From positions 1 through 64,000 of the forward strand of contig QJJF01000015.1 in the NCBI GenBank assembly GCA_003202005.1: a stretch of DNA of 64,000 nucleotides. Direction: 5' to 3'. The notes below the pieces were generated by a model. It was not told the origin of the DNA. It did not search any database and saw nothing but the letters and a program-made list of their open reading frames with translations. The DNA is from Williamsia faeni (GTDB lineage Bacteria; Actinomycetota; Actinomycetes; Mycobacteriales; Mycobacteriaceae). The translations under genes and the position numbers were made by a program. Positions 28,541-48,254 of the stretch are shown piece after piece. The first letter of the stretch is position 1. Each line of letters opens with the position of its first letter.

Positions 28541-28977
28541 CGCTCTCCTGGCTCGGGAAGTTCGAATTAGCGCAGATTTAACTTACCGGCGCCGGCCCAA
28601 ACGTCGACTCGATGTCAACGACAGATGGCCGCATTGTTTCCTCGAGGTTAATCGGCAACAGTTTCTGCGTGCCTTCGTAACGCGCCAGATCCGCGATACT
28701 GACGTACGCGTTGATCGCATTCACTGCCCGTGAACTGCACTGATTGCATTCAGCCCAACCTCTGACATCACAAATTCCCCACACCAGTCATGGTGACTCC
28801 GTTAAACGAATGGTTAACACAGATCTAACTTATCCATTCGGCAGCCCCCAAATATCGGGCTATTGACTCCATTTCACCCGTTTGCATACGGTGTGCAGGA
28901 CGACGAGGAAAAACGTCGAATCGGTTTCATAAAGCTCACAATTAAGCCGCAAAGGCACGTCAAAGAGGAGCAAGCAT
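28541..28977. promoter_or_regulatory. 437-base AT-rich control region with repeated motifs
   Basis: No gene seen. The segment is clearly lower in GC than its surroundings and separates the Rv3415c-like gene from whiB. The motif CAGATTTAACTTACC at 28573-28587 recurs as CAGATCTAACTTATC at about 28820-28834 (13 of 15 bases the same), one copy next to each divergent gene. A second pair, TTGATCGCATTCA at 28711-28723 and CTGATTGCATTCA at 28740-28752, is spaced 29 bases apart. These could be regulator sites; no known consensus is matched. Confidence 0.45.
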
Positions 28978-43928: not shown

Positions 43929-44300
43929 TCAGCGGTCGGACAGCCAACCGCTCTCGTAGGACGAGTCCGCACCCGCGGTGTCCACTGGGTCGTCATTGGA
44001 CGTCGTTGCGTCTGCGGCGGTGCGGGTCTCGTCGGTAGCGCCGCCGGCCGTATCGGATATCGGAGCCGGACCGGACATCGGACTGTGCGGACTGAGGTCG
44101 ATGTCGTCGGCCGGCAACAGGATCGCACCGCCTCGGGCGACTGATTCCCTGGTGACACCCCGGCGATGCCGGTCGTCTTCTGCCCGAACACGCACGCGTT
44201 CACCGAGTACGGCCATCTGTTGGTCGTAAGTCTTTGTGGCAGAGGCGGTTTTACGTCGTGCCGCGGACACGATCTCATCGAACAGATCGACGACGCTCAT
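43929..44300 (-). CDS. Unrecognised 123-residue protein, third gene of the T7SS-like operon
   Basis: No family recognised. The N-terminal 60 residues are charged and helical (LFDEIVSAARRKTASATKTYDQQMAVLGERVRVRAEDDRHRRG); the rest is acidic and Thr/Asp/Pro-rich, probably disordered. The start overlaps the stop of the 511-residue gene (ATGA), so it is coupled to it. A role as partner or chaperone of that protein is possible but unproven. Confidence 0.7.
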   Translation of the reverse strand: MSVVDLFDEIVSAARRKTASATKTYDQQMAVLGERVRVRAEDDRHRRGVTRESVARGGAILLPADDIDLSPHSPMSGPAPISDTAGGATDETRTAADATTSNDDPVDTAGADSSYESGWLSDR

Positions 44301-45832
44301 TGCTCACCTGCCAATGCCAGCTGCCCATCCTCCGGTGGCGGGCCCGCGTCGTCGGGCGCAGACGATTGTGGCGACACGGCCGTGTCCCGGTTCGGGGAGT
44401 TGTCACTCACTCCAGGGGTCCGGTGTGTGAACCCCGGCACGGGCGGGGCCGGGCTCTGAGGCGACACCTCCGGACCCGGTGCCACCGCTCCCGGTTCGAC
44501 GGGCGGACACGGTGTTTCGCTCGCTGTCGGCGGTACGACGCGACCATCGAGCGCCGCCTCCGCATCAGGTTCGACAGCAACCTGGACACCTTGCGTTTCG
44601 AGTGTGGGTTCGGGACCGTTCTGCCCGGTTGCCACGACCTCTCCGGTACCCACCTCCGGCGCACCGATCGACCCGTCCGGCCGTACTTCGAGCACGTGCG
44701 TTTCGGCATCGCCACCGGCCCCGGTCACCGTGAGATTCACCGACGCGCCATCCGCACCCGCTGCGATTTCGATGACCTTGTTCCCCAGCGTGATCGAGGC
44801 AGTCGCATCCGCTGATCCGTCGCCCGCGGCGGGTCCTGCCGAATCTCCCACCGGCGCCGTGTCGATCATCCCGCCGACCGACAGGCCGCCCTGCGCGACC
44901 ACGGTGGTGATCGCTTCGGCCAATCCGGTGACTGCTGCGGCCGCGATGGTGCCGACAACGACGAGCAGCGGACCCAGGAGTTCGGACGCTGACTCCCCCG
45001 ACAGCCCACCCGAGAAAGTCCCGGCGCTGCCCGCTGGGGTCCCACCGCCCGCCGGTGTCCCGCCACGTACCGGTTGGTCCCCGCCAGATTCCTGATCCTC
45101 GGACGCACACTCTTGATCCGACGGCGCATCGGCCGCACCGGTGAGTTGACCGACCGGCCCGGATCCAGTCGCTGGATAGTCGGAGGTGTCGACCTCGGCC
45201 ATGGCCGTGCACAGACCCGAGAGGATCGCTTCGATGGCCTCGTCGCAGGCGCTCACCGCAGTCCCGAACAGCTCCACGGTCGCCGCGATCGCTCCCCGGA
45301 GTTCGGTGTGGTGTGCAATGCAGGCCATCGTCATCCTCAGCCACAACGTGATCGGTACGCCGAGCAGATTGTTCGGGTCGATCCCGGCGATGCAGGTGTA
45401 CTGGGTGAAGCGTGCGACGTCGATGCAGTCTGCCGCGACCAGCATCCCGGTGCCGATCCCCGAGATCGCGGCCAGATCAGCCTCCGCCCGCGGCAGAATC
45501 GATTGGAGTTGTTGTTGTGCAACGATTCCGGAGCCATCCGGCCACGAACAGGCCAGTGCACCGTGCTGCTGCTTCTGTACGTCGACCTGCGAGGCCAGCG
45601 TGGCATGCAGTTGTTGCATCACCGCGCCGTCGGCGCGCAATTGCGCCGTGCTGAGGTCATCCGTCTGGCAGAAACGGCCTTCAAAGACCGAGAACTCGGG
45701 AAAATCTGTGATCCCGAGGCGCGAAGCCAACGGGGCGACGTGCGCAAAGAACTCGAGTCCGGATTTGGCAACCTCACGTGCTGTGGCCAGTTCGAACTGC
45801 AGATCAGCACCGGCGCCTGGCCCCTTACCCAC
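44297..45832 (-). CDS. Ala/Pro-rich protein, candidate type VII secretion substrate (Rv3439c-like)
   Basis: 511 residues from GTG 45832, in the position of Rv3439c. The first 270 residues form a long helical domain of the kind seen in ESX-associated proteins (FELATAREVAKSGLEFFAHVAPL..., GAVMQQLHATLASQVDVQKQQH). A Gly-rich hydrophobic stretch (about 300-335, LLGPLLVVVGTIAAAAVTGLAEAI) follows, then a beta-rich segment and a Pro/Val/Glu-rich low-complexity tail. There is no Sec signal. The start overlaps the small EspC-like gene by 8 bases. Function unknown. Confidence 0.75.
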   Translation of the reverse strand: MGKGPGAGADLQFELATAREVAKSGLEFFAHVAPLASRLGITDFPEFSVFEGRFCQTDDLSTAQLRADGAVMQQLHATLASQVDVQKQQHGALACSWPDGSGIVAQQQLQSILPRAEADLAAISGIGTGMLVAADCIDVARFTQYTCIAGIDPNNLLGVPITLWLRMTMACIAHHTELRGAIAATVELFGTAVSACDEAIEAILSGLCTAMAEVDTSDYPATGSGPVGQLTGAADAPSDQECASEDQESGGDQPVRGGTPAGGGTPAGSAGTFSGGLSGESASELLGPLLVVVGTIAAAAVTGLAEAITTVVAQGGLSVGGMIDTAPVGDSAGPAAGDGSADATASITLGNKVIEIAAGADGASVNLTVTGAGGDAETHVLEVRPDGSIGAPEVGTGEVVATGQNGPEPTLETQGVQVAVEPDAEAALDGRVVPPTASETPCPPVEPGAVAPGPEVSPQSPAPPVPGFTHRTPGVSDNSPNRDTAVSPQSSAPDDAGPPPEDGQLALAGEQ

Positions 45833-46139
45833 GACCGGCTTTCGCTTCGACTATCGACCGGCCATTCGCCCGGTCCTGTCCGTCCAAGGTGTCGGCGGCA
45901 TCGACCAGACCGTCACCGAACTGCCGCGCCGATTGCGCCAGCTTTCTCACACTCTGTGCGATCGCCAGCAATCCGGCGGAGTAGGCGAGCTCGTGGTGCG
46001 CGTACCGACTCCCGAGGTGCGCAGCCATATCGCACTCGCCCAAACCCGTGCACGCAACATCGGCCAGATGCGCGGTGTCCCCGAAGACACCGCCGACACG
46101 ACGTATCTCCGGCGGATCGATCCAGGTCTGATTCCCCAT
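45825..46139 (-). CDS. EspC/WXG100-like small helical protein (Rv3440c-like)
   Basis: 104 residues from ATG 46139, with GGGAGG six bases upstream. Length and two long helices separated by a turn (IRRVGGVFGDTAHLADVACTGL and YSAGLLAIAQSVRKLAQSARQFGDGLVDAADTLD) fit the EspC-like type VII secretion target family. There is no WXG motif, but EspC-like members often lack it. First gene of a three-gene coupled operon whose second gene is Rv3439c-like; the ESX-4 locus lies 3.4 kb beyond glmM-rplM. Secretion is inferred. Confidence 0.75.
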   Translation of the reverse strand: MGNQTWIDPPEIRRVGGVFGDTAHLADVACTGLGECDMAAHLGSRYAHHELAYSAGLLAIAQSVRKLAQSARQFGDGLVDAADTLDGQDRANGRSIVEAKAGRG

Positions 46140-46232
46140 GCTGACCTCCCGCCAGGTTGGACGCACCGGGCCCGAGTCCGGTTCCACGGATCACGACCTC
46201 GGTCTGCAACCACACTCAGCCCGGGAAACGGC

Positions 46233-46268
46233 GATGTCCGCGTCCCGAGTTCTCGGGACGCGGACATC
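46233..46268 (-). terminator. Strong hairpin terminator after the 26-residue gene
   Basis: GATGTCCGCGTCCCGAG (46233-46249) pairs with 46252-46268 at all 17 positions, leaving TT as loop (effectively 16 pairs and a 4-base loop). On the minus strand it lies 31 bases after the small gene's stop and runs into GCCGTTTCCC. It separates that gene from the downstream EspC-like operon. Confidence 0.8.
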
Positions 46269-46298
46269 AAACAAGCGAAGTGCAGGACCTACGCTGGC

Positions 46299-46379
46299 CT
46301 AGGCGCCAAACAACACTCCGGCGTTGTCGATGAGGAACTGGAAGATGTCCAGCCACGCGAACTCAAATGTCGAGGTCAT
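46299..46379 (-). CDS. 26-residue hydrophobic/aromatic peptide
   Basis: ATG 46379 to TAG 46299, not matched to any family I know. The peptide is rich in Phe and Trp, with acidic residues only at Glu6, Asp11 and Asp18 and no basic residue: MTSTFEFAWLDIFQF near the start, ending GVLFGA. It should form an amphipathic or membrane-active helix without a signal peptide. Evidence it is real: third codon positions are almost all G or C, AAGGG lies eight bases before the start, a promoter and 5'-UTR hairpin lie just upstream and a 16-pair terminator just downstream. Mycolic-acid bacteria encode comparable tiny unprocessed pore peptides (PorA/PorH type), one possible class; a toxin or leader peptide are others. 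Confidence 0.65.
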   Translation of the reverse strand: MTSTFEFAWLDIFQFLIDNAGVLFGA

Positions 46380-46400
46380 AGTGAATTACCCTTCGTAGTT

Positions 46401-46423
46401 GTGGGCGGAATGCATTCGCCCAC
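46401..46423 (-). promoter_or_regulatory. 5'-UTR hairpin of the 26-residue gene
   Basis: GTGGGCG (46401-46407) pairs perfectly with CGCCCAC (46417-46423) around a loop that is itself the palindrome AATGCATT plus one base. It begins where the predicted transcript starts and 22 bases before the ATG. A hairpin at the very 5' end commonly stabilises bacterial messages. Confidence 0.6.
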
Positions 46424-46430
46424 AGCGACA

Positions 46431-46460
46431 TACATAATTCGGAAACGGCCTGGGTCTCAA
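46431..46460 (-). promoter_or_regulatory. Promoter candidate for the 26-residue gene
   Basis: On the minus strand TTGAGA (46455-46460), an 18-base spacer and TATGTA (46431-46436) form a sigma-70-like promoter. The predicted start, about seven bases downstream near 46424, coincides with the first base of the 5'-UTR hairpin. Confidence 0.55.
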
Positions 46461-46922
46461 CCGATATCCGACCATACTGTTTCACAGCCAGACATATCTG
46501 TCACGACGAGAACGCGATCAATAGCCGACCAAGCCATCCGAATGACGGTAATCAGCAATTCATCGAGAAATTCCTTGCGCAATGAATGGAGACGGTATCA
46601 ATGCAGGCCAGAGGTCTATCGAGGGATAAACAACCGTTGACACGATTGCACGTCCGGAATATCAACATTCTTATCAACAGTCACAAAACGGACAAAACGC
46701 AACGCTGTTGATGCCCCCGACATCGGGGACACCAATTCCGAAAACCCCCGGCCCGGCGCATGAATAGGCCTGCAGACTTTCGTTGAACAGACCAATATAT
46801 GCGTGCACAAGAATAATTACCGAAGTGTTTACACGTCGTTCGAATCAACCGAGTCACCCAGAGGAATTGTGATATACCGCACATCGCAGAAAGCGGGCCG
46901 CTCGCCGGTGAAAGGTCGGCTG
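46461..46922. other. 462-base AT-rich stretch without a convincing gene
   Basis: Lower in GC than the flanking genes. Short frames exist on both strands (for example a 64-codon minus frame at 46616-46810 and a 36-codon plus frame from 46601 with a GGAG upstream), but none shows GC-rich third positions or a recognisable product. It separates the glmM stop from the 26-residue gene's promoter and may hold further control sites. Confidence 0.5.
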
Positions 46923-48254
46923 TCAGGCAGCCTCGACGACCGCCGCAATCCGCTCTGCGACCGACTGTGCCTGCTCCGCGGTGGCGGCCTCGACCATCAC
47001 CCGGACCAACTGCTCGGTTCCGGACGGACGGAGGAGCACGCGCCCGGTGGCACCGAGTTCGCCTTCGGCGAGGGCAACAGCCTGTTTGACCGACTCTGCT
47101 TGTGCAACGACATTCTTGTCGGCGACCCGGACGTTGATCAGCACCTGCGGGAGCGCGTGCATGATCGACGCCAGCTCGGCCAATGATTTGCCGGTGGAAG
47201 CCATGCGGTCCATCAGCGCGAGACCGGTCAGGATGCCGTCGCCGGTGGTGCCGTAGGACGGGATTACGACGTGACCGGACTGTTCACCGCCGAGGGCGTA
47301 GCCACCGGCCCGGAGTTCTTCGAGTACATAGCGATCACCGACACCGGTGGTGCGGACCGTGATTCCGGCCTCGGTCATCGCCAGGTGCAGTCCGAGGTTG
47401 CTCATGACAGTGGCCACGAGGGTGTTGTCGGAGAGGGTGCCGGCGTCCTTCATGGAGGTGGCGAGCACCGCCATGATGGCATCGCCGTCGACGATCTCAC
47501 CGGTTGCATCCACTGCCAGGCAGCGGTCGGCATCGCCGTCGTGGGCCAGTCCGAGATCGGCACCGTATTCCCGGACCGCGGCCTGAACCTGATCCAAATG
47601 TGTTGACCCACAACCATCGTTGATGTTGTTGCCATCGGGATCGGCACTGATCGCGATCACCGTGGCACCGGCTGTGCGGTAGGCGCGCGGTGCGGCCAGA
47701 TAGGCGGCGCCGTGGGCGCAGTCGACCACCACGGTCACGGGATTGAGGTTCGTATGGACGATCCCGGCCAAGTGGCGGAGATAGACATCGAGTGCGTCGT
47801 CGGCATCACGAACGCGGCCGACGTCTTCACCGGTCGGACGCTGCACTGCAGCGTCGAGCGCTGATTCGATGGCGTCTTCGGCTGCGTCGGCCAGCTTGTG
47901 GCCCCCGGGGCCGAAGAACTTGATCCCGTTGTCGGGCATCGGATTGTGCGAGGCCGAGATCATGACACCGAACGCGGCGTCGTAGTGGTCGGTGAGGTAG
48001 GCGACGGCCGGTGTGGGCACCACGCCGACGCGCAGGGCATCGACACCTGCTGCGGTCAGTCCGGCGCACACGGCTGCCTCGAGCATCTCCCCCGATGCCC
48101 TGGTGTCACGGCCGACGACCGCGACCGGTCGCCCGGACCCGCGTGCCGACGCGAGTACTCGCGCTCCGGCCTGTGCCAGTGATAGTGCCAGTTCCGGTGT
48201 CAGGTCGGCGTTCGCCAGTCCCCGAACACCATCTGTGCCGAACAGGTGCCCCAT
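46923..48254 (-). CDS. glmM: Phosphoglucosamine mutase GlmM
   Basis: Converts glucosamine-6-phosphate to glucosamine-1-phosphate, the step after GlmS. 443 residues: start [15 protein letters not shown], phosphoserine loop [15 protein letters not shown] with Ser102, metal loop AHDGDADRC, sugar loop [12 protein letters not shown], phosphate-binding end [15 protein letters not shown]. Same strand as rpsI and rplM, separated from them by a hairpin. Confidence 0.97.

Follow-up and report, generated by a model that had tools for sequence, protein, structure and literature searches.

A conserved gene for a 26-residue acidic peptide in Williamsia, a candidate small protein of the mycolic-acid outer membrane

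A frame of 26 codons, its signals and its conservation

Is an open frame of 26 codons a gene and, if so, what could its peptide do? The question is raised by the minus strand of the window, i.e., the whole 64-kb stretch of DNA analyzed here, where an earlier note made from the letters alone had proposed a self-contained small-protein gene with a possibly porin-like or membrane-active product. Genes of this length escape routine gene calling and may well lack annotation. The position of the frame and its 26-residue product had been given correctly (Table 1). The peptide has a charge of -3 and contains no Lys, Arg or His, as expected from the net negative character described before, and the G+C content at codon positions 1, 2 and 3 (0.44, 0.33 and 0.85) bears out the proposed preference for G or C at third positions. 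The absence of a signal peptide also holds, judged by length, 26 residues leaving no room for a signal plus a mature part.

Table 1. Coordinates of the peptide gene and of the signals around it in the window.
Feature	Position	Strand	Details
Peptide gene, family A	46299..46379	minus	26 aa plus stop, MTSTFEFAWLDIFQFLIDNAGVLFGA; in 9/9 genus genomes; pN/pS 0.15-0.37
Ribosome-binding site GAAGGG	46389..46394 (46394-46389)	minus	from sequence; 9-nt spacer to ATG
Leader hairpin, 8 pairs	46400..46424	minus	z -2.15; 8 of 200 shuffles as good
Hairpin 3' of the stop codon, 17 pairs; probable intrinsic terminator without U-tract	46232..46269	minus	z -6.8
Promoter proposed in the earlier note	46431..46460	minus	TTGAGA 46460-46455, 18 nt, TATGTA 46436-46431; from sequence; unconfirmed

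The expression signals fared unequally. The ribosome-binding site, announced as AAGGG, is in place, and the other copies of the gene have either GAAAGG or GAAGGG. The hairpin at the 5' end exists as well, but with one pair more than the seven that had been counted. Similarly, the hairpin behind the stop codon is strong and one pair longer than the 16 described (the 74-nt stretch that contains it folds at -40.9 kcal/mol, equalled by none of 200 shuffles), but a terminator with a U-tract was not found by the consensus scan of positions 46150-46950; this hairpin is probably an intrinsic terminator without U-tract. The same scan, with the sigma-70 consensus, found no promoters in that region and did not recover the TTGAGA/TATGTA pair. 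Rfam at gathering scores gave no match in the window.

We have found the gene, hereafter family A, in all nine Williamsia genomes examined, at 12 places. These genomes are part of a family-wide draw of 301 genomes from 31 genera, and the frame is kept in all nine. A search with the single sequence at E 0.1 matched none of the 292 genomes of other genera. When the window gene was compared with the other 11 copies, change was found mostly at silent sites (pN/pS range in Table 1), and the pooled value for the family was 0.26 (11 distinct DNA copies). The copies encode eight distinct peptides, none with a basic residue. Since the frame is conserved in all nine genomes of the genus and under purifying selection, it is coding, and we are nearly certain that it is a real gene. 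The window was also scanned, outside long coding frames, for small frames that follow a ribosome site and encode 18-45 aa, with no more than one basic residue and one or more acidic ones. There were two matches, the peptide gene and a frame at 28578-28634 that looks like chance. Among 2000 Markov sequences modelled on positions 46188-46922 (735 nt), nine had a ribosome site followed by a frame for an acidic, basic-free product of 18-45 aa.

The comparison of the window with 10 other family A loci indicated how far the conserved unit extends. In eight of them a single piece of 62-81 nt was in common, always inside positions 46316-46396, that is, the gene and its ribosome site, where the common DNA ends; with the remaining two nothing was in common. 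The leader hairpin falls outside this DNA. The loci compared belong to six unrelated contexts, and, apart from the gene with its close borders, common DNA between contexts was limited to an inverted flank of about 726 nt (L013 against the group L015-L017). A glmM gene within 1.5 kb was found for one of the 12 copies, that of the window. Because the window shares the gene with its ribosome site and no more with eight loci, and nothing with two, we consider the gene autonomous and not a leader peptide. Its description as a self-contained small-protein gene is strongly supported.

Some of these surroundings deserve mention. In the window, the peptide gene is followed by frames of 511 and 104 aa (44297-46139, minus strand), neither of which reached the threshold of any Pfam or NCBIfam model; by position, the order of these frames and glmM (46923-48254) recalls what we take to be the mycobacterial Rv3441c-Rv3440c-Rv3439c arrangement. 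In genome G001, the family A gene is located about 350 nt upstream of a gene for a cutinase/PE-PPE-domain protein (L080, 8309-9289, minus strand), and in G008 an FtsX-type ABC permease gene (L081, 7077-9983, plus strand) ends about 310 nt before it. The Williamsia peptide gene also occurs in a database record labelled Kitasatospora arboriphila NRRL B-24581 (L018 and L021; NZ_JNYV01000006.1 and NZ_JNYV01000015.1). The flanks of L018 are about 92-95% identical to those of W. muralis (L019), and the genome is probably mislabelled.

Sister families and mycoloyltransferase loci

Williamsia carries a multi-family set of such peptides, family A being one of several that are acidic, basic-poor and 21-39 aa long. 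Families C (21-22 aa, six genes in six genomes) and D (22 aa, five genes) have the N-terminus and L10/F15 in common with A, and in an alignment of 15 rows from the three families M1, S3, L10 and F15 are invariant. A joint profile of A, C and D found 23 genes in the nine Williamsia genomes; in the 292 other family genomes its best match (E 0.07) was inside a long frame. Family B (30-33 aa, 13 genes) is likewise present in all nine and, outside the genus, in a single genome, G023 (E 3.7e-9), a match that was examined and kept. The B copy of the window's own genome (G000:C2:641082-641174) has no ATG and a putative TTG start; for three other copies a GTG start is likewise presumed. In five of the nine genomes, that of the window not among them, B has an A or a D gene within 300 nt on its own strand: B is 140 nt downstream of A in G002, while D comes 168-284 nt downstream of B in G001, G004 and G007, and B and then D are 241 nt apart in G006. 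Family E (26-39 aa) is found in eight of the nine genomes and F (28 aa) in six. In addition, a basic-free 29-aa frame, family H (MLETIFYFFEVIENTFWVIADAVATGSVG; L080, 5803-5892, minus strand), adjoins a globin gene in G001, with the gene of family A some 3.7 kb away. A candidate at G000:C1:173073 was rejected for an in-frame stop. The window genome yielded A and B alone, after a search for C/D and F by profile and for E, G and H at its mycoloyltransferase loci.

Several of these families are located next to mycoloyltransferase genes. Family C adjoins the gene of a mycoloyltransferase, assigned to Pfam Esterase, that in each genome was the best match; families E and F lie on the other side of the same gene, and in three genomes G (30 aa) is found 1.5 kb from another mycoloyltransferase. 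Against PDB sequences, the C-adjacent enzyme scored 266 bits with Cmt1, 166 with PS1 and 108 with Ag85A. In Williamsia, 100 mycoloyltransferase matches were counted and 30 loci scanned, eight of which had a tiny acidic frame, and these eight correspond to the orthologs of the gene beside family C in all the genomes but that of the window (L112). There, the eight stretches covering all nine mycoloyltransferase matches hold no such frame, so that the association is one of the sister families and not of the window gene, which adjoins glmM and not a mycoloyltransferase. The ortholog of the C-adjacent enzyme in the window genome (G000:C1:288900-289919) is also Cmt1-like. Actually, Cmt1 is the best PDB match of every one of the seven mycoloyltransferases compared (the enzyme beside family C, this ortholog and five other paralogs), with 266, 263, 243, 235, 225, 234 and 177 bits, the C-adjacent enzyme being the highest. 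As all of them prefer Cmt1 over Ag85, the proposal that singled out the C-adjacent enzyme as a peptide-specific Cmt1 was weakened, and such specificity is only suggested. Frames at five other Williamsia loci (L119, L130, L133, L134 and L135) came from a looser first scan, which allowed overlap with long frames, and were dropped by the stricter one.

In the same way, we looked for mycoloyltransferase in 30 other genera, each represented by a single genome. It was found in 29, and the search provided 30 test loci, two of them from G019, that were scanned with the frame filter extended up to 60 aa. Tiny acidic frames preceded by a ribosome site occurred at 10 of the 30 test loci, and the 34 control loci had none (Fisher p 2e-4), a comparison in which the controls were recruited through chance matches, come mostly from other genomes than the test loci, contain 27,948 bases of non-coding DNA versus 15,728 and are not independent, since 17 of the 34 were recruited via the same stretch of one protein (model positions 2-21). 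Judged by their composition, eight of the 10 frames look like PorA/PorH-type peptides; the other two (L197 and L212) look like chance. PorA/PorH-like frames of 40-52 aa lie beside the mycoloyltransferases of L189 (2553-2675), L190 (850-987), L205 (588-716) and L206 (3754-3912), and there are further frames beside those of L187, L202, L207 and L213. The frame of L206, with 52 aa, weakly matches the NCBIfam model PorACj_fam (NF038022) at E 0.0097 and 15.9 bits, below the cut-off of 28. Matches of profile A to other genera over positions 2-21 were discarded as chance, the six loci examined all falling inside one longer conserved protein, presumably UreG. Other weak matches outside the genus (profiles A, B and F), mostly in long frames, were not counted.

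Possible role of the peptide and alternative explanations

The paralogous families, the tandem pairs and the clustering of the sister families with mycoloyltransferases make the porin-like or membrane-active idea the best reading of the window peptide. The peptide had no match in Pfam, NCBIfam or PDB sequences, nor had the A and B members scanned. With moderate confidence we propose that the family A peptide most likely resides in the mycolic-acid outer membrane and has a function like that of PorA, PorH or ProtX, without being a member of these groups by sequence. For family A we infer the following steps, from transcript to pore. The peptide would be translated from its own short transcript and leave the cell without a signal peptide, through a route of the PorA/PorH type. 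A Cmt1-like mycoloyltransferase may then O-acylate it with mycolic acid on an N-terminal Ser or Thr, Ser3 being the candidate. One would naturally place the acyl chain at the N-terminus, as the only Ser/Thr residues are at positions 2-4 and Ser3 is invariant in A, C and D. Finally, the acidic helix might associate into a channel or a structural oligomer, either with copies of itself or together with another peptide, e.g., of family B. Amphipathicity was evaluated by the muH shuffle p, which was 0.15 for the window peptide, 0.055 for the A consensus, 0.068 for B, 0.38-0.58 for C, 0.049 for D, 0.23 for E, 0.15 for F, 0.015 for G and 0.017 for H. The window peptide and families C, E and F do not go beyond shuffles, and with an amphipathicity this weak a pore can be claimed less firmly than a place in the mycomembrane.

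A wider proposal, which we put forward tentatively and with more doubt than conviction, is that Williamsia, and probably much of the order, might carry a large overlooked class of acidic, signal-less peptides of 21-52 aa, often beside mycoloyltransferases, that would be mycolic-acid-modified outer-membrane proteins, some of them (such as A with B) forming the smallest protein channels known.

Other roles have to be weighed against residence in the outer membrane. The peptide could be a small helper of the inner membrane or the cytoplasm, a very short hydrophobic helix that attaches to a larger membrane protein and modulates it. The length, the hydrophobicity, the lack of a signal and the conservation as a small gene would all suit this role, but there is no constant neighbour among the six unrelated contexts, the peptide has three acidic and no basic residues, and the sister families cluster with mycoloyltransferases. 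We consider a helper unlikely. Phenol-soluble modulins of staphylococci are short helical peptides exported without a signal peptide, and a secreted surfactant-like or signalling peptide of this kind would agree with the size, the missing signal and the many paralogs. The FtsX-type permease gene upstream of family A in one species group (L081) could be seen in the same light, but the flanks are unshared and the permease is not a constant neighbour. Besides, unlike the modulins, family A has no basic residue in any of its eight distinct peptides and its sister families are tied to mycolic-acid enzymes, all of which leaves this explanation with a rather low probability.

A type I toxin or bacteriocin peptide would also be small and hydrophobic, and might have its own hairpin terminator. 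However, the gene is found in every genome of the genus examined, its product is basic-free and the family A consensus was unmatched at E 1 in 72,556 plasmid and 50,697 phage records; we regard this role as very improbable. The strong hairpin directly 3' of the stop codon could suggest a leader peptide or regulatory upstream frame of the next gene, an explanation to which we give hardly any weight with selection acting on amino acids and the protein sequence kept over six unrelated contexts, glmM being near the window copy alone. A chance open frame, short as this one is, is a negligible alternative in view of the nine genomes, the pN/pS values and the nine of 2000 Markov sequences.

A mycomembrane peptide is, then, the explanation that we prefer. 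To our knowledge, the passage of small solutes across the mycomembrane is poorly known outside Corynebacterium. If the wider proposal is true, this class of peptides would supply mycomembrane pores in genera without recognised PorA/PorH. The tiny peptides encoded genus-wide, some beside Cmt1-like enzymes, are candidates that can be easily synthesised.

Comparison with known small proteins of the mycomembrane

At the level of titles and abstracts, the open-licence literature searched on small mycomembrane proteins, cell-wall channels and mycoloyltransferase-linked peptides does not describe these genes, and that on Williamsia and porins includes only unrelated work. PorA (45 aa) and PorH (57 aa) of Corynebacterium glutamicum, helical proteins with genes in tandem, are reported to have no signal sequence and to be acylated with mycolic acid by Cmt1 (PMC12632848, PMC5310785), the enzyme reported to O-mycoloylate both (PMC11066868), on sites that are mostly Ser, less often Thr, with no strict motif (PMC11066868). 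A mixed channel has been proposed for the pair, with an AlphaFold model of five copies of each (PMC12632848). ProtX (Cgp_2875) is a signal-less protein of 38 aa acylated on Ser37 (PMC5310785), of a function given as unknown (PMC9671496). Single small signal-less helical peptides, PorACj (40 aa) and PorACur (37 aa), have been reported as pores (PMC3792995, PMC5944148), the latter length being the smallest reported for a channel subunit (PMC5944148). How general protein O-mycoloylation is within the order is described as an open question (PMC5310785).

The window peptide resembles PorACj and PorACur as a small signal-less peptide, but it has only 26 aa and no NCBIfam match, the frame of L206, in another genus, being the only one that matches, and below the cut-off. 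With ProtX it shares small size and lack of a signal. However, the acylated residue of ProtX is near the C-terminus, as is the mapped site S56 of PorH, whereas the Ser/Thr residues of the window peptide are N-terminal. The differences from PorA and PorH are several: families A to D are shorter (21-33 aa, below even the 37 aa of the smallest channel subunit), have no detectable sequence relation and occur at other loci as dispersed paralogs. The porH-porA tandem is located between groEL2 and ppk2, while the window gene stands alone beside glmM. As sequence relation and locus were both tested and neither was found, we do not file family A under PorA/PorH. The likeness lies in the tiny acidic peptides, in the tandem A-B and B-D pairs and in a Cmt1-like gene flanked by sister families.
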